The notes: generated from the letters alone by a model not told the origin. DNA of 33,100 bases from Patescibacteria group bacterium (GCA_022710685.1 JAKLGM010000009.1:1-33100), one strand, 5' to 3'. Numbered from the stretch's first letter, positions 6,938 through 29,064 are shown. Translations and numbers: made by a program.

Positions 6938-8203
6938 TTAATTCCTCAAGCAACGGACCGACAAACCATTTGGCCGAACATCACTGCTACGATTGACCCC
7001 CGACACCCCAGCGCTCAAATAACGATTTAAAGAAACGAGAGACATCGATGAAAAATTATCGGCCAGCCAAAAAAAAGTATTAGCATTAATAGTATAGAAT
7101 AATCCATCAACGCTCCGATAGCCGGTAGGCAAGGCTGTAAAACCGGAAGAATTATTAGAAGAGTCTCCCCACACATCTGTCTTTAATTTAAACCCGGCGC
7201 TCTGACAACCTTCGCCGCTGCGGCTGGCGTCGCAATTATTAACCGGATCGTCAGAAAGAAAATATTCTAAAGCATACCAATCAGCATCAGAGGGGACGTG
7301 CCAACCGGAAGGACAAATTCCTTGTATTTTAGTGCTGGCCGGATCAGGATAATTACAATCCACATAGTCAGGGGAAGTGCAAGTAGTTCCATCGCAGGTA
7401 TACTGAGTATTGTTACAATAGTAAGGTAGGCCCATAGTTTCGGACCAATCATAAAAACCGCCATATACTAAACAGTTGTTTTCATCATTTTCATAACAAT
7501 ATTTTTGGATACCAGCCGTCCCCTGGCATGACCACCACCCCCAACCAGATCCAGAAGTCTCAAAGCAGTCATCATTTGTGCCATTAATACCATCATAGCC
7601 ATTAATAGTATTGCCGCTACCAATATAAGTACCTATGTTTAAATTTTCCTTAAACCAAACCTGGGATCCAATCGTAATTGTATTGTATATATCGCCGCCA
7701 TAGGTGCACTGACTCCCTCCTGGAGTGCTAAGAGAGCAAGGAGCTATTCCGCTGTCACCACAATCTACATCCACAATTCCCGCCGGAGTCAGACACTTTG
7801 GTCCGGCGGTCAGGGTTCCGGTGGTGTTGCCGAGGCAGAATGAAATAGTATAGGAATTGCCATTCTCGGTTTGTTGATAATAGACAGTATTCTGGCCAGG
7901 AGTACAGCTGCCATCAGCTGGAGTCGGAGCAGATGGGATGATCTGCATGTAAGTAGAGGTGCCGTAGGTAGAGGTAGAAAAAATAGAGCCTAAAGCAAAT
8001 TCTTCTGCTGTCGGGTAGCGGTTATTATCGTTAAAGAATAGCTCCAAAGCTGTCTGGACTTGTTTCATATCCCCCGCTCTTTTAGCATCACGGGATTTAG
8101 CCCGGGCATTTTGGAGGGCGATAATAGAAATGGTAGCTATAACGCCGATGATAGCAATTACGACCAATAATTCGATTAGAGTAAAAGCGCGTTTTTTAGT
8201 CAT
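6938..8203 (-). CDS. Type IV prepilin-like protein with C-terminal FISUMP domain
   Basis: The N-terminus is a classic class III prepilin signal: basic MTKKRA, cleavage before FTLIELLVVIAIIG with Glu at mature position 5, then the long N-terminal helix. The segment to residue ~150 is a compact pseudopilin head with YPTAEEF and a Cys-containing loop. Residues ~165-421 match the FISUMP pattern: GGDIYNTITIGSQVWFKENL, ICPSGWHVPSDADWYALE, then a C-terminal GLSVRCLRN. At 421 residues it is far larger than an ordinary minor pilin (~150). It is probably a surface-exposed pilus or pseudopilus tip adhesin, but the function of FISUMP is unknown. It shares its first ~150 residues with the protein at 11207-12700. 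No pilus assembly genes (pilB, pilC, pilD) are in the window. Confidence 0.88.
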   Translation of the reverse strand: MTKKRAFTLIELLVVIAIIGVIATISIIALQNARAKSRDAKRAGDMKQVQTALELFFNDNNRYPTAEEFALGSIFSTSTYGTSTYMQIIPSAPTPADGSCTPGQNTVYYQQTENGNSYTISFCLGNTTGTLTAGPKCLTPAGIVDVDCGDSGIAPCSLSTPGGSQCTYGGDIYNTITIGSQVWFKENLNIGTYIGSGNTINGYDGINGTNDDCFETSGSGWGWWSCQGTAGIQKYCYENDENNCLVYGGFYDWSETMGLPYYCNNTQYTCDGTTCTSPDYVDCNYPDPASTKIQGICPSGWHVPSDADWYALEYFLSDDPVNNCDASRSGEGCQSAGFKLKTDVWGDSSNNSSGFTALPTGYRSVDGLFYTINANTFFWLADNFSSMSLVSLNRYLSAGVSGVNRSSDVRPNGLSVRCLRN

Positions 8204-11206: not shown

Positions 11207-12700
11207 TTATTCCGTATTACCCTGGGAATCAGTCTTCACAAAATAATAATCATAGCCGTTGGCGCTAGTTTCCCCTGCGAAAACATAGCCGCCGTCTGAA
11301 GTCTTGGCAACACCATAGAGATATTCATCTTCTCCGGCAATGCCAAAAGTCTTATGCCATTGCTCAACCCCAGCACCATCAACCTTAACCATATAAACAT
11401 CATAATTATTGCCGGCGCCATCAATATCGTTAGAGCCAACCAAGAGGTATCCGCCGTCATTGGCGCGGGTGAAAGAATATAAAATATCATACCAATCAGG
11501 ATCACCATAATAATTTTCCCAGATAATATTGCCGACTGAATCGATGTTAGCCAGATATAACGCGTCATTTGCCTGGGCCGCCAACATATAAGTGCCATCA
11601 GCTTTTTGTAGCAATGATTTACCTTCTTTGAAGTTAGTATAAGTCTGACTCCAGCCGCTAGGGGCAATATCGCCGTTAGCATCTAGTTTTAATAAATAGC
11701 CGCCCAAAGCGTTGCTGGCCTTGCCAGTCAATAAATAGCCGCCATCAGCAGTCTGAATAATATCACGAACCCGGTGGTAATCACCACCGATATCATGTGT
11801 CTTGTGCCATTGTTCCGACCCGCTAGCATCAGTTTTTATAATAAAAATATCTTCTGGATAACCGGTTGTTCCAGCCATAATATAACCACCGTCGCTAGTC
11901 TGACGCACGGCATAAACTCGCTGTGTCAAAGAATAAACATAGGTCTTGGGCCAGCCAGCGACAACGTTTCCGGCCGAGTCAGTCTTCACCAGATAAAAAT
12001 CATTAGCCGATACTCCACCCAAAATGTAGCCGCCGTCAGAAGTTTTTTCTACCGGATGACCAGCATACATTATTTGAGTGCCAGAATCGCCATAATTATG
12101 TTCCCAGATGACAGTTCCGGCGCTATCCACCTTAGCCAAATAAAAATCATAGCTATTGCTGCCATTCATGCCGCCAACAACATAGTTACCATCGCCCGCC
12201 TCTAGCGGGGTGAAAAGATATTGTTCTCCCGGGTCACCCCAATTAATCGCTAATTTGCCAGAACAAGTTTGATTAGTAAAACCGGAAGGGCTTAAGCAGA
12301 TTGGACCATTATTTAAATCGCCCACTTTCCCGCCCAAACAGGTTGAGATAGTGTAAGACACACCTTCGTCTATTACGGAATAAATATAAGCATTATCATT
12401 GTTGCTGCAAGTATTGTCAGCTGGCGTGGGAGAGGCCGGCTTGATATACATATAAGTTGAAGTCGACCCGGACGAAGTGGAAAAAATGCCATTATCAATA
12501 CTCAAAGGATACGCCCCCTTGTCATTGAAATACATCTCTAAAGCAGTCTGCATTTGCTTCAAGTCGCCCAACCTTTTAGCATCGCGCGATTTAGCCCGCG
12601 CGTTAGACAGCGCAATAATAGAAACGGTCGCCAAGACGCCGATGATGGCGATAACTACTAAAAGCTCAATTAAAGTAAACCCTCGCTTAAATTTAGCCAT
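11207..12700 (-). CDS. Type IV prepilin-like protein with seven-repeat beta-propeller-like domain
   Basis: The prepilin signal MAKFKRG-FTLIELLVVIAIIG with Glu5 is followed by the same pilin head as the 6938-8203 protein (SRDAKR, TALEMYFND, PTPAD, SYTISTCLGG). From residue ~150 onward the sequence consists of about seven repeats of ~45-50 residues. Each has the form (T/A)(S/A/N)DGGY, a hydrophobic strand, and (Y/F)xxKxDxxG. Seven such units suggest a closed seven-bladed propeller, with the first partial strand completing the last blade. It is probably a surface or pilus-tip binding protein. I prefer the ATG at 12700 to the one at 12709 because it places the basic residues as in its paralogue. 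Confidence 0.87.
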   Translation of the reverse strand: MAKFKRGFTLIELLVVIAIIGVLATVSIIALSNARAKSRDAKRLGDLKQMQTALEMYFNDKGAYPLSIDNGIFSTSSGSTSTYMYIKPASPTPADNTCSNNDNAYIYSVIDEGVSYTISTCLGGKVGDLNNGPICLSPSGFTNQTCSGKLAINWGDPGEQYLFTPLEAGDGNYVVGGMNGSNSYDFYLAKVDSAGTVIWEHNYGDSGTQIMYAGHPVEKTSDGGYILGGVSANDFYLVKTDSAGNVVAGWPKTYVYSLTQRVYAVRQTSDGGYIMAGTTGYPEDIFIIKTDASGSEQWHKTHDIGGDYHRVRDIIQTADGGYLLTGKASNALGGYLLKLDANGDIAPSGWSQTYTNFKEGKSLLQKADGTYMLAAQANDALYLANIDSVGNIIWENYYGDPDWYDILYSFTRANDGGYLLVGSNDIDGAGNNYDVYMVKVDGAGVEQWHKTFGIAGEDEYLYGVAKTSDGGYVFAGETSANGYDYYFVKTDSQGNTE

Positions 12701-12735
12701 AATTAGCAAAATTAAGTATAATATATTATAATGAT

Positions 12736-18283: not shown

Positions 18284-18381
18284 TTCATGACTCTTTTACT
18301 TCTCAGTTAAGCGCCTAAAACTAGACATTTAACTGAGAAGTAAAAAATAATATTAACCAGAAAAAACCATAAAGTCATGAA
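18284..18381 (+). promoter_or_regulatory. Leader RNA that can pair with its own start codon
   Basis: A perfect 17-bp hairpin (18294-18310 with 18329-18345, 18-base loop) sits inside a second helix. In that helix TTCATGACT (18284-18292) is fully complementary to AGTCATGAA (18373-18381), which contains the ATG at 18377. No T-run follows the hairpin, so it is not a terminator. A translational switch is inferred. Confidence 0.6.
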
Positions 18382-19255
18382 AACCACAATAAAGATCATG
18401 TTGACGGTTTTGGCAGTTGCCATTACCTTCGTTGCCAATGCCCAGAGTAATGCTGGCGGCACCCTTATTCCTACCACTTCAGTTTATGTCGGTGACAAAA
18501 CATTAGCCGACTATCAGAATGAATTAAATGTTCTGGATGCTGAAATAGCTAAGTTGGAAGCCAAGAGGGACGCCGAACTGGAATCCCTGGCCGAAGCTTA
18601 CAAAGACAATCTGCCGGTTAAAGGCAAAGAAAGCAAACTGAGAGTCAAAAAATCAAAAGGGAACCTCTCTACTTATGAAGCTTCCCTGTTGAAACTGACT
18701 GACTCTACCAGCGCTATCAACCCGGCCACTAACAATTCCGATGCCTACACCACAGAAAAGGCCAACTATGATGCCGCTTATGAAGCTGCCAAAGGCAAAA
18801 TTAATGCCAAGTATGACGCTTTAATCGCTAAGATTGAAGCAAATCGCGAAATTGTTTTGTCCAACATGGTAAACAGTTCCAGCGTCAATTACGTAGCTTC
18901 AACCACCAGTGCTGACAAAGCCGGTAATCTTTACATCAAAGTAAAAGCCGGTGATAACTTAGGCAATACTGGCACAGGCACTGTAAGCACTGGAAACACC
19001 GGAAGCGATATTAACAACGGCGGCGGCGTAGCGATGTTGGTAATCCACAACACTTCAAACTACACCATCACTGTTAACAGCGCCCCCTTTACTGGAACTA
19101 CCTTAGCTCCGGGACAGGTCAGCGTCGTTCCCCAGCCGGTAGCTGTTGGACTTTATACTCTGGTTTACACCAAGTACTATAACAACAGCAGCCCCTCTAT
19201 CACAAAATATATTGGGATTACCCAGGATGGTGGAGCTCACATCAACATTCCGTAA
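18377..19255 (+). CDS. Secreted coiled-coil protein of unknown function
   Basis: A 292-residue exported protein. The signal peptide MKTTIKIMLTVLAVAITFV has a likely cleavage at ANA-Q. Residues ~45-75 and ~130-170 are Lys/Glu/Ala-rich helices likely to form a coiled coil (NVLDAEIAKLEAKRDAELES). A Gly/Thr/Asn-rich linker (~200-220) leads to a C-terminal beta-rich domain (VAMLVIHNTSNYTITVNS, later SITKYIGITQDGGAHINIP). There are no cysteines. I do not recognise the family. The Ala-Gln signal-peptide end resembles Bacteroidetes secreted proteins, but codon use looks like its neighbours. It is a single-gene unit with consensus promoter, structured leader and strong terminator. Confidence 0.75.
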   Translation: MKTTIKIMLTVLAVAITFVANAQSNAGGTLIPTTSVYVGDKTLADYQNELNVLDAEIAKLEAKRDAELESLAEAYKDNLPVKGKESKLRVKKSKGNLSTYEASLLKLTDSTSAINPATNNSDAYTTEKANYDAAYEAAKGKINAKYDALIAKIEANREIVLSNMVNSSSVNYVASTTSADKAGNLYIKVKAGDNLGNTGTGTVSTGNTGSDINNGGGVAMLVIHNTSNYTITVNSAPFTGTTLAPGQVSVVPQPVAVGLYTLVYTKYYNNSSPSITKYIGITQDGGAHINIP

Positions 19256-19275
19256 CGAATCTTTAAACAAACAAA

Positions 19276-19310
19276 AAGGCGTCTATGAAAATAGACGCCT
19301 TCTTTTTTTA
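19276..19310. terminator. Bidirectional terminator between convergent genes
   Basis: An 11-bp stem AAGGCGTCTAT / ATAGACGCCTT with a 4-base loop. T-runs follow on both strands. It serves the coiled-coil gene (+) and the pilin operon (-). Confidence 0.88.
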
Positions 19311-19321
19311 TCAAAAAATGA

Positions 19322-19756
19322 TTAATTACCTTGAGATGGGGTGCCACCGCCAGCGCCGCCGGTAGCGAAAGGCAGATTATTGAAGACAAAAGCGGTAATA
19401 GCATAAGCGGCCAGAACAATGACTAGGCCGATAACGGCGGTCTTGATGCGAGCCTGAGCTTTTGTGACCTGGTCTTCATTGCCGCCAGCTGTCATCCATT
19501 GATAACCGCCTAAGACAAGAAGGACCAGAAAGACAATACCTAATAAACCCAAAATCACGCCGATAACGGTGGAGATGACATTTTCAATATTATTGCTGGA
19601 ATCAAATCCGGCGTTAGCATTCAAAGCATCAGTTTGCTCCATGATACTGGAAGAAGCGCGCAAGAATCCGGCCGAAGCGACCGGAGCAATAGCCAAGAAA
19701 GAGGCCCACATGATAACGATGGTTAAAAGGGCGATGATTTTAGAAAAAGGTTTCAT
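19322..19756 (-). CDS. TrbC/VirB2-like pilin, cluster member 6
   Basis: A 144-residue two-helix protein with a signal peptide ending near VASAG, a polar segment, helix 1 (~62-88, ISTVIGVILGLLGIVFLVLL), loop YQWMTAGGNEDQ, basic stretch KAQARIKTA, and helix 2 (~108-128). The tail is Gly-rich and ends TPSQGN, shared with member 2. Over the helix-loop-helix core it is very close to the neighbouring 19774 gene in both protein and DNA, suggesting recent duplication. It is last in the five-gene operon from 21571. Confidence 0.82.
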   Translation of the reverse strand: MKPFSKIIALLTIVIMWASFLAIAPVASAGFLRASSSIMEQTDALNANAGFDSSNNIENVISTVIGVILGLLGIVFLVLLVLGGYQWMTAGGNEDQVTKAQARIKTAVIGLVIVLAAYAITAFVFNNLPFATGGAGGGTPSQGN

Positions 19757-19773
19757 ATATTTTTAATTAAATA

Positions 19774-20172
19774 CTAATAGAGCAGGCGCTCGGCCACGAA
19801 AGCCCAAACAGCATAAGCTGACAAAGTAATGACTAGGCCGATAATGGCAGTTTTGATACGGGATTGGGCCTTGCTGACTTCATCTTCATTGCCGCCAGCC
19901 GTCATCCATTGATAGCCGCCTAAAATAATCAGAATGATAAAGATAACGCCTAACAAACTCAAGGCCGTGGAAATAACCGTGCCAACAATGCCGGAAACGC
20001 TAGTGCTGTCAACATCGGCATAAGCGCCGGTGGCAGAATTTTTTAAACGATCCAGGGGCGAGCTGCTAGCGTTAGTAGCACCCTGAGCGAACTGGACAAA
20101 AACAAAATAAGGCAAAACCATTAAAACGACGAAAGAAACTAGTATAAGGGCTTGCTTGATAGTTTTCTTCAT
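19774..20172 (-). CDS. TrbC/VirB2-like pilin, cluster member 5
   Basis: 132 residues with a signal peptide ending near AQGA, a Ser/Ala/Asp-rich spacer, helix 1 with LSLLGVIFIILIILGG, loop YQWMTAGGNEDE, KAQSRIKTA, and helix 2 ending AFVAERLLY. It lacks the PSQGN-type tail of members 2 and 6. It sits 29 bases after member 4 and 17 before member 6, with no Shine-Dalgarno. Nearest paralogue is member 6. Confidence 0.82.
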   Translation of the reverse strand: MKKTIKQALILVSFVVLMVLPYFVFVQFAQGATNASSSPLDRLKNSATGAYADVDSTSVSGIVGTVISTALSLLGVIFIILIILGGYQWMTAGGNEDEVSKAQSRIKTAIIGLVITLSAYAVWAFVAERLLY

Positions 20173-20201
20173 AATATATTTTATAATTTTTATATGCTTG
20201 A

Positions 20202-20690
20202 TTACTCGCCTTGAGCCGGTTCACCGCCCTCGATAACCGCCGGGGCTGATCCGAGCCGGCCATTATTCATAAAGACGCTCAGTATAAAGAAAGACAAGGC
20301 ATAAGCGCTAACCACTATTACCAAGCCGATGATTGCCTCCTTAATGAATCCTTTCGCCTTGTTTACCTGCTCTTCATTGCCGCCAGCGATCATCCAAAGA
20401 ATACCGCCATAAATGACAATAATAATGAAAATTACGCCCATCAACGACAAGATGGCCGTGATAACAGTGCTAACAATTTGCTCTGGCGTTCGAGCCGCTC
20501 CGTTGCCGGCGATAAAAAAGCCAGCATTATTGGCAGCCGAATCCAAGCGATCATTCTGGGAATAAACATCACCCGAATCAACCCGAAAAGCATCATTCAA
20601 ATCAGTGGCTCTGACGGCCAAAGCCGAACCGAAAAACAGCAGGGATAAAGATAGGGCGAGAATAATTTTTTTGGAAAACATATTTTTCAT
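20202..20690 (-). CDS. TrbC/VirB2-like pilin, cluster member 4
   Basis: 162 residues, the longest of the cluster. It has a signal peptide ending near VRATD, a longer polar N-terminal region (~28-75), helix 1 (ILSLMGVIFIIIVIYGG), loop ILWMIAGGNEEQ, KAKGFIKEA, helix 2, and a C-terminal extension ending GGEPAQGE. That ending is similar to the PSQGN tails of members 2 and 6. It begins 5 bases after the stop of member 3. Confidence 0.82.
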   Translation of the reverse strand: MKNMFSKKIILALSLSLLFFGSALAVRATDLNDAFRVDSGDVYSQNDRLDSAANNAGFFIAGNGAARTPEQIVSTVITAILSLMGVIFIIIVIYGGILWMIAGGNEEQVNKAKGFIKEAIIGLVIVVSAYALSFFILSVFMNNGRLGSAPAVIEGGEPAQGE

Positions 20691-20695
20691 AAAAA

Positions 20696-21097
20696 CTATT
20701 GGGTTACTAAAGTTTGAGCGACCATTAAACTGGTAACAAAATAAGAGATAGCATAAGCGGCGGCTACGATAATAATGCCAACGATGGTATCGGCTAGCAT
20801 GGTCTTGGCCGTATCAACTCTTTTCTCATTGCCACGCGCGGTCATCCAAAGGATACCGGCGTAGATCATCATGATCAAAAAGATAACGCCCAAAAATGAA
20901 AGGGCGGTAGCTAAGATAGAGTTAATGCCAAAAGTCAAATCGCCGCCAGTACTGGCGCCAAAGAGACGTTGATTATAATGGCCGGTCTTCTTGGCTGTAT
21001 AATCCAAACCGGTGCTGCTGGCAAAACTATAAGCCCAAGCGCTCTGAGCCCAAAGCCAAAGACTGATACTGGTCAATAATAAGCTTATTTTTTTCAT
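20696..21097 (-). CDS. TrbC/VirB2-like pilin, cluster member 3
   Basis: 133 residues with signal peptide MKKISLLLTSISLWLWAQSA ending near AWAY, an aromatic and basic spacer, helix 1 (ALSFLGVIFLIMMIYAG), loop ILWMTARGNEKR, and helix 2 ending MVAQTLVTQ. The loop has Arg in place of the first loop Gly (ARGNE rather than AGGNE), so it diverges from members 4-6. It has no C-terminal PSQGN tail. It starts 24 bases after member 2. Confidence 0.8.
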   Translation of the reverse strand: MKKISLLLTSISLWLWAQSAWAYSFASSTGLDYTAKKTGHYNQRLFGASTGGDLTFGINSILATALSFLGVIFLIMMIYAGILWMTARGNEKRVDTAKTMLADTIVGIIIVAAAYAISYFVTSLMVAQTLVTQ

Positions 21098-21121
21098 CTT
21101 ATTACTAATTAAAAATCAAAA

Positions 21122-21571
21122 TTAATTTCCCTGGGACGGCGGCGGAGTCGGGTTGGTCTCAGTTAATTGCCGGCCGATGAAGGCGGTAATGGCATAAGCC
21201 GATAGAATGATAATCAAGCCGATAATAGCTGACGTCAAAATATTCTTAGCGCGCTCCGTCTGCTTTTCATTGCCGGTGGCAGTCATCCATAAGAAACCGG
21301 CGAAGATTATAAGTATCATTAGAATAACGCCGATAAAAGATAAGATGGCGCCGATGATCTGACCGATTTTAGTAGATAAAAATTGACCGGCACCACCAGC
21401 AGCATCAACCTGGTCGGTATTCAAAGGACCGCTCAAATTACCGGCAGTAATGGTATCGGATAAGCCATAGTCGCCGGAAGCGGCGAAAACACGGCTCATC
21501 AGAACAAAGAGGGACAAAAATATGATTAAAGAAACCAGAGGAAAAACAATTTTATTAATCTTCTTCTTCAT
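21122..21571 (-). CDS. TrbC/VirB2-like pilin, cluster member 2
   Basis: 149 residues with a signal peptide ending near RVFAA, a Gly/Asp/Ala-rich spacer, helix 1 (ILSFIGVILMILIIFAG), loop FLWMTATGNEKQ, RAKNILTSA, and helix 2. A Pro-rich tail ends TPPPSQGN. It is the first gene of the five-gene operon 21571-19322 and lies 237 bases from member 1, separated by the folded RNA. It probably has its own promoter (21592-21618). The TrbC assignment rests on the helix-loop-helix pattern and the W-M-T-A-x-G-N-E loop. Confidence 0.82.
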   Translation of the reverse strand: MKKKINKIVFPLVSLIIFLSLFVLMSRVFAASGDYGLSDTITAGNLSGPLNTDQVDAAGGAGQFLSTKIGQIIGAILSFIGVILMILIIFAGFLWMTATGNEKQTERAKNILTSAIIGLIIILSAYAITAFIGRQLTETNPTPPPSQGN

Positions 21572-21591
21572 AGTTTTATATTGAAAAAATT

Positions 21592-21618
21592 ATTATAGAT
21601 AGCTTGATCCTGCTTCAA
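21592..21618 (-). promoter_or_regulatory. Possible promoter of the five-gene pilin operon
   Basis: Minus strand: TTGAAG, 15-base spacer, TATAAT, or TTGTTG with an 18-base spacer. The site follows the RNA element's T-run and gives a ~13-base leader before the 21571 start. Confidence 0.35.
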
Positions 21619-21619
21619 C

Positions 21620-21790
21620 AAAAAATTCCAGAGCCGCGGCCCGGTTAAGATTTTTTACTGAGCTAGAATTGTTAGTAACGACCGAAAACTCATAGTAAAA
21701 ACCAATAATTAGTCTTACGGCTCTGGGCACGAAGTAGTTTCCTGCCCAAGGCGGTGGCCCCGTTTTTAAAACAGGGCCAACTTTTCCGAA
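21620..21790 (-). ncRNA. Highly structured intergenic RNA in the pilin cluster
   Basis: Read on the minus strand. Hairpin A (21756-21778) has GGCCC/GGGCC plus AT pairs. Hairpin B (21725-21747) has GGGCA/TGCCC plus GAA/TTC. A ~99-base long hairpin follows with three helices: 9 bp (21718-21726 with 21628-21636), 5 bp (21713-21717 with 21646-21650) and 11 bp with a 2-base bulge (21689-21701 with 21652-21662). The sequence after the last arm is AATTTTTTG, terminator-like. I do not recognise a known riboswitch or housekeeping RNA. It could be an independent RNA, a 3'-UTR stabiliser for member 1, or an attenuator before members 2-6. Confidence 0.55.
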
Positions 21791-21808
21791 ATCGATTTCT
21801 GAAAATTA

Positions 21809-22189
21809 TTATGCATTATTGGTGGCATTGATTAAGCTGTTCAAGACGAACGAAGCGATGCCCCAAGAAGCCAAGATGATGACTAAACCGATAACACCGG
21901 CACCCATCAACTTTTTAGCTTCACCCACCTTGTCTTCGTTACCAGCAGCAGTCATCCATTTGAAACCACCTAATAAGATGATGACAACGGCGATGATGCC
22001 CAAGAATAACATAAGGGTGTTGATGATACGGGCCACGATTCTTCTCGGATCTTCTGATCCTAATTGAATCTGCTCGCTAATTTCATTGATACCGACGTCT
22101 AAAGCATGAGCTCTTAAGCCGACGAATAACACGCCAACCAAAGACATGATGCCTAAAGACAATAAATTCTTCATGATTTTTTTACTCAT
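21809..22189 (-). CDS. TrbC/VirB2-like pilin, cluster member 1, strong ribosome binding site
   Basis: 126 residues, the shortest. It has a signal peptide with a basic start (MSKKIMKNLL) ending near AHALD, a short spacer (GINEISEQIQLGSEDPRR), helix 1 (LFLGIIAVVIILLGG), loop FKWMTAAGNEDK, EAKKLMGAG, and a final helix (VIGLVIILASWGIASFV) ending NATNNA. It is the only gene in the window with a clear Shine-Dalgarno, suggesting it is the abundant major subunit. The structured RNA follows it. It is transcribed divergently from the membrane protein gene at 22283. Confidence 0.83.
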   Translation of the reverse strand: MSKKIMKNLLSLGIMSLVGVLFVGLRAHALDVGINEISEQIQLGSEDPRRIVARIINTLMLFLGIIAVVIILLGGFKWMTAAGNEDKVGEAKKLMGAGVIGLVIILASWGIASFVLNSLINATNNA

Positions 22190-22193
22190 AATT

Positions 22194-22203
22194 CACCACC
22201 TTT
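22194..22203 (-). promoter_or_regulatory. Strong Shine-Dalgarno of pilin member 1
   Basis: Minus strand: AAAGGTGGTGAATTATG. AGGTGG is one mismatch from AGGAGG with a 6-base spacing to the ATG. Other starts in the window lack a usable Shine-Dalgarno. Confidence 0.75.
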
Positions 22204-22269
22204 CTAGTTTTAGTTTGTTAATAATTATATAAAAATATTACCATATTTCTAAAATAAAAACAAATATGT

Positions 22270-28365: not shown

Positions 28366-29064
28366 TTATTGGGGTAGACAACAAACTAATGGGTTGGCTG
28401 GATCACTTCCAGCCGGACAAGGCCGATCAGTCTTACAGTCGCGACCAGCGCTCGCCGCCATACAAGCATAACCTTGACCAGCGCCCTCGCAAGTTTTTGC
28501 CTTACAACATTTGATATTAGGATTATCAGCATTATCACCCAAACATAGACCGGTAATACAGGAATCACCCAAACTCTTGTCCATACAAGAATATCCCTTA
28601 TCGCCATATTTTTGGGAGCAGATATCACCGGCACCAGTAACCGAAGGCCGGCTGATAGTACCGGACCAATTAAGGCCAAGGGCAGTCATGGAAAACTTAA
28701 CAATCATATAACTGCCAAAGACAATGGCCAAACCGACGACTGAACCAATTAATATCTTTTTGCCCTTCTCTACCGTCTGGGCATTGCCGCCGGAAATTAG
28801 GAACATAAAGCCGCCGACGACAAACATCAAGAGAGTCAAAGAACCGACTATGCCTAGGATCCATTGCATTACGTTAACTATAAGCTGGACGCCGTCATTC
28901 AACGTATAATTGCCGCAATTAACTGCACCAGTCGGGCACTTGCCACCGGTCTCAGACGGCAACAGGCCGCGGTCGGCCGCTTGCACTGCCAAAAAAGGCA
29001 AGATGACAAACAAACAAATGGCGGCGGCGATAATAAAATTCTTCTTGGAAAAAATATTTTTCAT
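28366..29064 (-). CDS. TrbC/VirB2-like protein with C-terminal 12-cysteine tail
   Basis: 232 residues. The signal peptide ends near VQAAD, followed by a loop with two cysteines (GGKCPTGAVNCGNYTL), helix 1 (~55-78), loop FMFLISGGNAQT, KGKKILIGS, and helix 2 (~95-118). This is the same architecture as the pilin cluster. From about residue 145 it carries two tandem six-cysteine modules, each C-x(8-10)-C-x8-C-x(4-5)-C-x11-CC with a shared GY(S/A)CM element. These are likely disulfide-stabilised and extracytoplasmic. It sits 9 bases after the solute-binding lipoprotein and 8 before the RodZ-like gene. Confidence 0.8.
   Translation of the reverse strand: MKNIFSKKNFIIAAAICLFVILPFLAVQAADRGLLPSETGGKCPTGAVNCGNYTLNDGVQLIVNVMQWILGIVGSLTLLMFVVGGFMFLISGGNAQTVEKGKKILIGSVVGLAIVFGSYMIVKFSMTALGLNWSGTISRPSVTGAGDICSQKYGDKGYSCMDKSLGDSCITGLCLGDNADNPNIKCCKAKTCEGAGQGYACMAASAGRDCKTDRPCPAGSDPANPLVCCLPQ

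Follow-up and report, generated by a model that had tools for sequence, protein, structure and literature searches.

The window analysed here, a stretch of 33,100 nt from a Patescibacteria group bacterium, carries a tandem array of pilin genes which, judged by sequence comparison, are six orthologous slots whose order is kept across the bacterial family. We consider it slightly better than an even chance (roughly 55%) that these genes encode one major pilin and five specialised minor ones, in proportions governed by the design of the operon, for a type IV secretion system (T4SS) encoded elsewhere in the genome. Pilin arrays themselves have already been published; the novelty appears to lie in the operon organisation, that is, in the fixed slots, the signals of slot 1 and an RNA element. 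Unequal and conserved slots argue for a fixed composite fibre architecture rather than for interchangeable variants, and they show which pilin is probably the major one and which subunits may be adhesive, so that the question becomes testable.

Pilin genes of the window and secretion genes elsewhere

The six consecutive minus-strand genes and two further ones (p0 and p7) listed in the earlier note were all found as ORFs (Table 1). The lengths it gave, 126-162 residues with one extended member of 232, were confirmed as well (126-162 aa in the array, 144 and 232 aa in the two singletons). Pairwise identity within the array is about 25-46%. In many genomes of the family, a p7-like gene precedes the array at a distance of 2-7 kb.

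Table 1. Positions of pilin genes and associated elements in the window (33,100 nt)
Feature	Position	Strand	Basis
Six-ORF pilin array	19322-22189	-	Consecutive ORFs; lengths in coordinate order (slot 6 to slot 1) 144, 132, 162, 133, 149, 126 aa
Slot 1 pilin, 126 aa, proposed major subunit	21809..22189	-	PF18895 7e-10; slot-1 clade
Slot 2 pilin, 149 aa	21122..21571	-	PF18895 1.3e-8; NF045849 40.2 bits, cut-off 40; slot-2 clade
Slot 3 pilin, 133 aa	20696..21097	-	PF18895 25.6 bits (hmmscan), 27.4 (genome search), cut-off 26.6
Slot 4 pilin, 162 aa	20202..20690	-	PF18895 9.8e-11; least conserved slot on tree
Slot 5 pilin, 132 aa	19774..20172	-	PF18895 2.4e-8; tree
Slot 6 pilin, 144 aa	19322..19756	-	PF18895 3.2e-10; tree
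Singleton pilin p0, 144 aa	3053..3487	-	PF18895 4.8e-10; orthologues in both same-genus genomes
Singleton pilin p7, 232 aa, cysteine-rich tail	28366..29064	-	PF18895 2.7e-9
Putative slot-1 promoter: -35-like TTTGTTTT, extended -10 TGGTAATAT	22235..22264	-	Comparison of family upstream sequences
Strong conserved Shine-Dalgarno leader of slot 1, AAAGGTGGTGA	22193..22203	-	Motif search, duplex energy
Structured RNA element, three hairpins (HP1, HP2, HP3)	21711..21810	-	3' of slot-1 stop codon; overlaps last two bases of slot 1
Terminator-like hairpin, T tracts on both strands	19273..19304	.	After slot 6 and after opposite gene 18377-19255

Profile searches against pilin families, which the earlier note had proposed, gave matches of all eight proteins to Pfam T4SS_pilin PF18895, with E values between 1e-5 and 1e-10 in hmmscan. 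Seven exceeded the curated cut-off of 26.6 bits there and the eighth, slot 3, did so in the genome search only. None of the eight reached the cut-off of the TrbC/VirB2 profile PF04956 (27.9 bits; best score 19.6 bits). By PF18895, the assignment to a pilin family is right. The core of seven of the pilins is also covered by NF045849 (Mbov_0395 pilin-like), a profile connected with Mycoplasma/Spiroplasma-type ICE. Slot 2 barely passes its cut-off, whereas six others score below it (23.5-38.2 bits), p7 gives no match to this profile, and no integrative-element context was found around the pilins here.

By hydropathy, each pilin has an N-terminal hydrophobic signal-like segment followed by two hydrophobic segments which flank a G-N-[E/A] loop (the first segment of slot 3 is missed by a simple hydropathy cut). 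The expected signal peptide and helices were thus predicted in all cases; the WMTAxGNE-type loop ascribed to all eight was present in six (WMTARGNE included) and replaced by WMIAGGNE in slot 4 and by FLISGGNA in p7. An AlphaFold2 model of slot 1 (pLDDT 74.6) predicts a signal helix and a two-helix hairpin, with helices at residues 3-40, 48-80 and 85-125. Both hydropathy and the slot-1 model show the VirB2-type plan, in which a signal segment is followed by a short loop connecting two transmembrane helices. A structure search gave no PDB match with an E value of 0.001 or lower, and hence no solved T4SS pilin; such a search discriminates helical hairpins poorly. A sequence search of solved structures gave nothing relevant. 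A motif common to several C-terminal tails, PSQGN in two slots (2 and 6) and PAQGE in a third (4), was dismissed because relatives do not keep it.

The source genome is a 0.89-Mb draft. Its nearest named relatives are Candidatus Falkowbacteria MAGs, and it represents a Falkowbacteria relative, probably of the class ABY1, a tiny bacterium with a presumably host-dependent lifestyle. The genome search yielded 14 PF18895 matches; those outside the window comprise a doublet on contig C8, a 1819-aa protein on C33, a 1103-aa protein on C1 and proteins of 429 and 576 aa on C31, the last being below the Pfam cut-off and bearing a C39-peptidase domain.

The absence of a secretion ATPase or any other T4SS gene, noted earlier, holds within the window and fails genome-wide. 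Our search of the rest of the genome found a VirB4 ATPase (639 aa; PF19044, 1.9e-28) and PrgI/VirB3 (30.2 bits, cut-off 27) on contig C23, and a T4CP-like protein on C5. T4SS genes are thus missing from the window because of gene placement, and the implied lack of a secretion system was mistaken. Near VirB4 lie TrsD-like and VirB6-like candidates; these identities are plausible, although no family cut-off confirms them. Genes beside the VirB4 locus resemble what we take to be recG and radA. Such a neighbourhood agrees with the class ABY1 as described in PMC12102498.

Thus, VirB4 and PrgI/VirB3, both expected of a Patescibacteria T4SS, are present in the genome, and the further mark, virB4 near the pilins, is lacking: array and virB4 are on different contigs here, and in a relative (G003) where a single contig carries both, approximately 173 kb separate them. 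According to PMC12102498, pilin genes lie near virB4 in 1135 of 1948 assemblies with both. Co-occurrence was rejected as evidence for a pilin-VirB4 link, since PF18895 (143 of 144 genomes) and the VirB4 P-loop (132 of 144) are near-universal in the class and have little discriminating power.

Conjugative pili are, as far as is known, homopolymers built from a single pilin. VirB2 pilins are described in PMC12857230 as membrane-inserted hairpins which the T4SS polymerises from the membrane. Our proteins share with VirB2/TrbC conjugative pilins the signal peptide, two membrane helices, short loop and a T4SS in the genome; they differ in their scores against PF04956 and in the number of PF18895 matches in one genome. 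Further counterparts are the VirB2-like arrays of Patescibacteria, of which 441, with 2-11 genes and a mean identity of 25%, are reported for 383 assemblies (PMC12102498). In the epibiont Southlakia epibionticum (a Saccharibacterium), six pilins (PMC12857230) and an essential pilin series (PMC10633639) are reported; the Patescibacteria T4SS is essential to epibiotic growth in the one species tested, its role being unknown (PMC11665869, PMC10633639). These arrays resemble ours in having tandem divergent T4SS-type pilins and an MPF-FATA-type VirB4 in the genome, and Southlakia also in the number six. In contrast, our array is not linked to virB4 and has orthologous slots, strong slot-1 signals and an RNA divider, features which we did not find in the portions of PMC12102498, PMC10633639 and PMC12857230 covered.

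Orthology of the array slots

Next, the array was compared across the family. Among 13 family genomes, 11 have six genes and two have seven, and the extra gene of both seven-gene arrays belongs to the slot-1 clade. The gap after gene 1 is consistently longer. On a maximum-likelihood tree of the array pilins of these 13 genomes, position labels require 10 changes as compared with 52.7 after shuffling (minimum 6), and on a tree of 37 six-gene arrays, including distant ones, 28 as compared with 143.7 (minimum 5), these trees being built from few columns, with modest internal support and with slots 3 and 4 not forming clean clades. Recent tandem duplication as the origin of the array was rejected on the basis of the slot tree.

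Within the genus, dN/dS is 0.05-0.23 where computable, with dS near saturation. Slot orthology combined with low dN/dS is the pattern that retained, differentiated subunits would show. The earlier description of a conserved core with diverse spacers and tails was borne out in most comparisons, though not in all.

Variable spacers and tails would also be expected from a host-range or antigenic-variation repertoire, in which near-equivalent major pilins would diverge and one could take the place of another. For Patescibacteria arrays, PMC12102498 suggests by analogy that they serve antigenic variation or host adaptation. A repertoire of this kind has been proposed for Bartonella trw with its multicopy VirB2/VirB5. 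Like our array, trw contains tandem, sequence-variable VirB2 paralogues; these are read as antigenic variants in PMC12857230, whereas here the slots are fixed and under purifying selection. Lineage-specific copies under relaxed or diversifying selection were not seen. Instead, position-specific orthologous lineages are maintained across genera, dN/dS is low, copy number stays nearly constant at six within the family, and slot 1 alone carries strong expression signals, none of which fits interchangeable copies. To judge from their sequences, the array genes do not look like antigenic-variation copies, and we regard a repertoire as quite improbable.

Expression signals of slot 1 and the intercistronic RNA element

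Slot 1 differs from its neighbours in both promoter and ribosome-binding site. An extended -10 precedes it in 22 of 23 family genomes (1.6 in shuffles), and a -35-like TTTGTNTT was spotted by eye in the same upstream sequences; a generic promoter scan picks another hexamer pair, 22224-22253. In all 23 genomes, slot 1 is preceded by a strong Shine-Dalgarno (SD) sequence within the conserved leader ACTAGAAAGGTGGTGAATT-ATG or one closely similar to it. The SD duplex energies of slot 1 in these genomes lie between -12.9 and -17.5 kcal/mol, while the medians for slots 2-6, with start codons chosen by rule, range from -0.4 to -2.9. In the loci examined, the motif precedes slot 1 in many genomes and only one other gene. 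Upstream of slot 2 there is a weak promoter-like match (9 of 12), and an internal transcription start may exist there. By its promoter and SD, slot 1 appears to be built for high output.

Directly downstream of slot 1 lies a covarying, multi-hairpin element of about 100 nt. No match at the gathering threshold was found in the window among 4227 Rfam models, and over the element itself even a limit of E 5 gave no match; within Rfam and the literature searched, it appears to be a new structured RNA. A covariance model, built from ten sequences with the pairs of HP1 and HP3, scores the window element at 84 bits (E 5.6e-16), this sequence being a member of the training set. At E up to 0.1 the element was found in 24 of 24 family genomes (ten of them training genomes), each time directly after slot 1. 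A slot-1 search supplied 79 loci, some of them from genomes that the family survey had covered. Leaving aside the training genomes, these loci hold 32 sense matches, of which 30 start between -30 and +73 nt from the end of the slot-1 match; the other two are in loci with longer arrays (L162 and L175).

Three hairpins are predicted in the window and in most relatives, and only HP2 and HP3 in, for example, G008, G011 and G020. In an alignment fitted to the model, which includes two antisense rows, pairs are kept in 90.7% of cells as compared with 39-50% when slid, and double changes number 115 as compared with 33.9 when shuffled. The training alignment, made without structure, has a kept double change at 17 of 27 pairs. 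Fold z-scores of the ten sequences range from -4.0 to -9.9 (-4.0 for the window element). In sense rows, G-U pairs exceed A-C pairs 41 to 17, and therefore RNA of the slot-1 strand is favoured.

From its position and covariation we infer that the element protects slot-1 mRNA. The hairpin cluster 3' of the slot-1 stop codon would probably shield this message from degradation at its 3' end, comparable to the situation in malE-malFG and puf. Differential mRNA decay via protective structures is known to set subunit ratios in several bacterial operons, malEFG and tatABC being examples; the puf operon has an intercistronic stem-loop (PMC5927463). In such operons, papBA included, RNA structures stabilise the mRNA of one subunit, often the high-copy one; decay was measured there, whereas our proposal derives from the element itself.

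The element might instead act as an attenuator, or as a DNA-level regulator site, between slot 1 and slots 2-6. HP1 retains a AAATCGATTT palindrome in many members, beyond pairing needs, and weak matches occur on the opposite strand as well, both in favour of such a role. However, the pairs of HP3 are kept despite sequence change, HP2 is predicted in sequences differing in composition, and the G-U excess speaks for RNA. No sense-strand terminator-like site (stem and T tract) was found in 21709-21808, which also speaks against this rival and led us to discard an intrinsic terminator after slot 1. Either regulatory role seems doubtful to us, and we keep to a stabiliser of slot-1 mRNA.

Outside the family, the element follows the first gene in a few related families (G024, G027, G028, G031), and with stricter filters it was found in 5 of 144 genomes of the class. 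Being limited to the family and near relatives, it is not needed for such arrays generally. It can nevertheless serve as a marker for finding such operons.

Proposed fibre and giant pilin fusions

The array would form a single operon for pilus- or channel-forming subunits of a Patescibacteria-type (MPF-FATA-like) T4SS. The signal peptide would direct the two-helix hairpin to the membrane, where the loop would lie inside and the spacer and tail outside. Slot 1 would be the major pilin, made in excess because of a conserved promoter of its own, a strong ribosome-binding site that no other slot has, and the probably protective hairpin cluster. The tightly packed, weakly translated slots 2-6 would supply five specialised minor subunits; since they are kept as separate orthologous lineages, the fibre would be a heteropolymer of fixed composition. 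In the fuller version, the Falkowbacteria T4SS would build a heteropolymeric pilus with one major pilin and five fixed minor ones, capped or decorated by giant pilin-adhesins and with its subunit ratio set through the new intercistronic RNA element; we put this forward tentatively, its chances being somewhat short of even.

The earlier note had left the choice between a heteropolymeric surface fibre and a family of membrane scaffold proteins. The fibre is favoured by the slot orthology, by the RNA element after slot 1 and by the strong SD that slot 1 alone possesses, and the first interpretation as a whole is partly supported. As a scaffold, the proteins would remain in the membrane, lining the T4SS channel or organising surface proteins, and no extracellular fibre would arise. 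They are, by hydropathy and the slot-1 model, small two-helix membrane proteins; Gram-positive MPF-FATA systems generally lack pili (PMC12102498), and transfer can need pilins when no pili are visible (PMC12857230). An assembled surface structure is nevertheless the better, if indirect, fit to the PF18895 similarity, to the signs of excess slot-1 synthesis and to the linkage of slot-1-type domains with giant surface modules. We retain the scaffold as a rival, and a rather unlikely one.

These giant proteins, 881-2361 aa long, occur in several family genomes, some being seen only up to a contig or locus end, and their N-terminal pilin domains group with slot 1 in the tree. Those of the source genome have C-terminal TIG, Big_5 and FISUMP (Fib_succ_major) domains. 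We know of no T4SS equivalent of a pilin-adhesin fusion within the open-access PMC literature. In type IV pili, a pilin domain bearing an adhesive module is known (PMC8179133). By their domains the giant fusions are adhesin-like and may be adhesive. In the proposed heteropolymeric pilus, the slot-1-type domains would bring the TIG/Big_5/FISUMP proteins, as adhesins, onto the fibre or next to it, where they could hold a host cell or help to feed on it. Long open frames with PF18895 matches are found elsewhere in the class, too.

VirB4 and pilins across the class

Among the 144 genomes surveyed in the class (probably ABY1), 12 gave no match to the VirB4 P-loop, and pilin matches are present in 11 of these 12. 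One of the genomes without a P-loop match, G167, consists of a single contig with a completeness of 96%. The missing matches may reflect either an overlooked, divergent VirB4 or true loss of the gene.

Other pilin-like and modular proteins of the window's genome

In the giant proteins of loci L019 and L020, the N-terminal pilin domain, which groups with slot 1 of the six-pilin array, is followed by TIG, Big_5 or FISUMP domains; giant genes of this kind adjoin as pairs in several genomes of the family. Pairs resembling the two L021 proteins also occur in the relatives G003 and G010 (325-441 aa). Near the L018 pilin doublet lies a gene that, judged by eye, resembles an SPFH/prohibitin-type membrane protein. 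The cysteine-rich tail of the singleton pilin p7 contains 15 cysteines in this genome, and the tails of its orthologues from the same genus and family are shorter and different. Type IV pilins of modular build are known, with Falkowbacteria among their carriers (PMC8179133); the C-terminal parts of the prepilin-like proteins found here look FISUMP-like or repeat-like by eye.

Features in the window and in loci L018-L021 of the same genome
Feature	Location	Strand	Length (aa)
Giant protein, N-terminal slot-1-type pilin domain	L019 399-5858	-	1819
Giant protein, N-terminal slot-1-type pilin domain	L020 4420-7731	-	1103
Weakly pilin-like domain fused to C39-type peptidase domain	L021 9108-10838	+	576
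Second pilin-domain protein, C-terminal half with cysteine, near the 576-aa fusion	L021 6887-8176	+	429
Pilin doublet	L018 8062-8976 and 9946-11106	-	
Type IV prepilin-like N-terminus (FTLIELLVVIAIIG), long C-terminal part	window 6938-8203	-	
Type IV prepilin-like N-terminus (FTLIELLVVIAIIG), long C-terminal part	window 11207-12709	-	
Type IV prepilin-like N-terminus (FTLIELLVVIAIIG), long C-terminal part	L018 1688-5071	-	
Singleton pilin p7	window 28366-29064	-	232
RNA element	window 21711-21810	-	

The RNA element after slot 1

The covarying structure that follows the slot-1 stop codon may switch between conformations, or may serve at the DNA level as a binding site. Its hairpin HP1 keeps the palindrome AAATCGATTT, and HP2 and HP3 often have in common a CCAC segment, usable by either stem.
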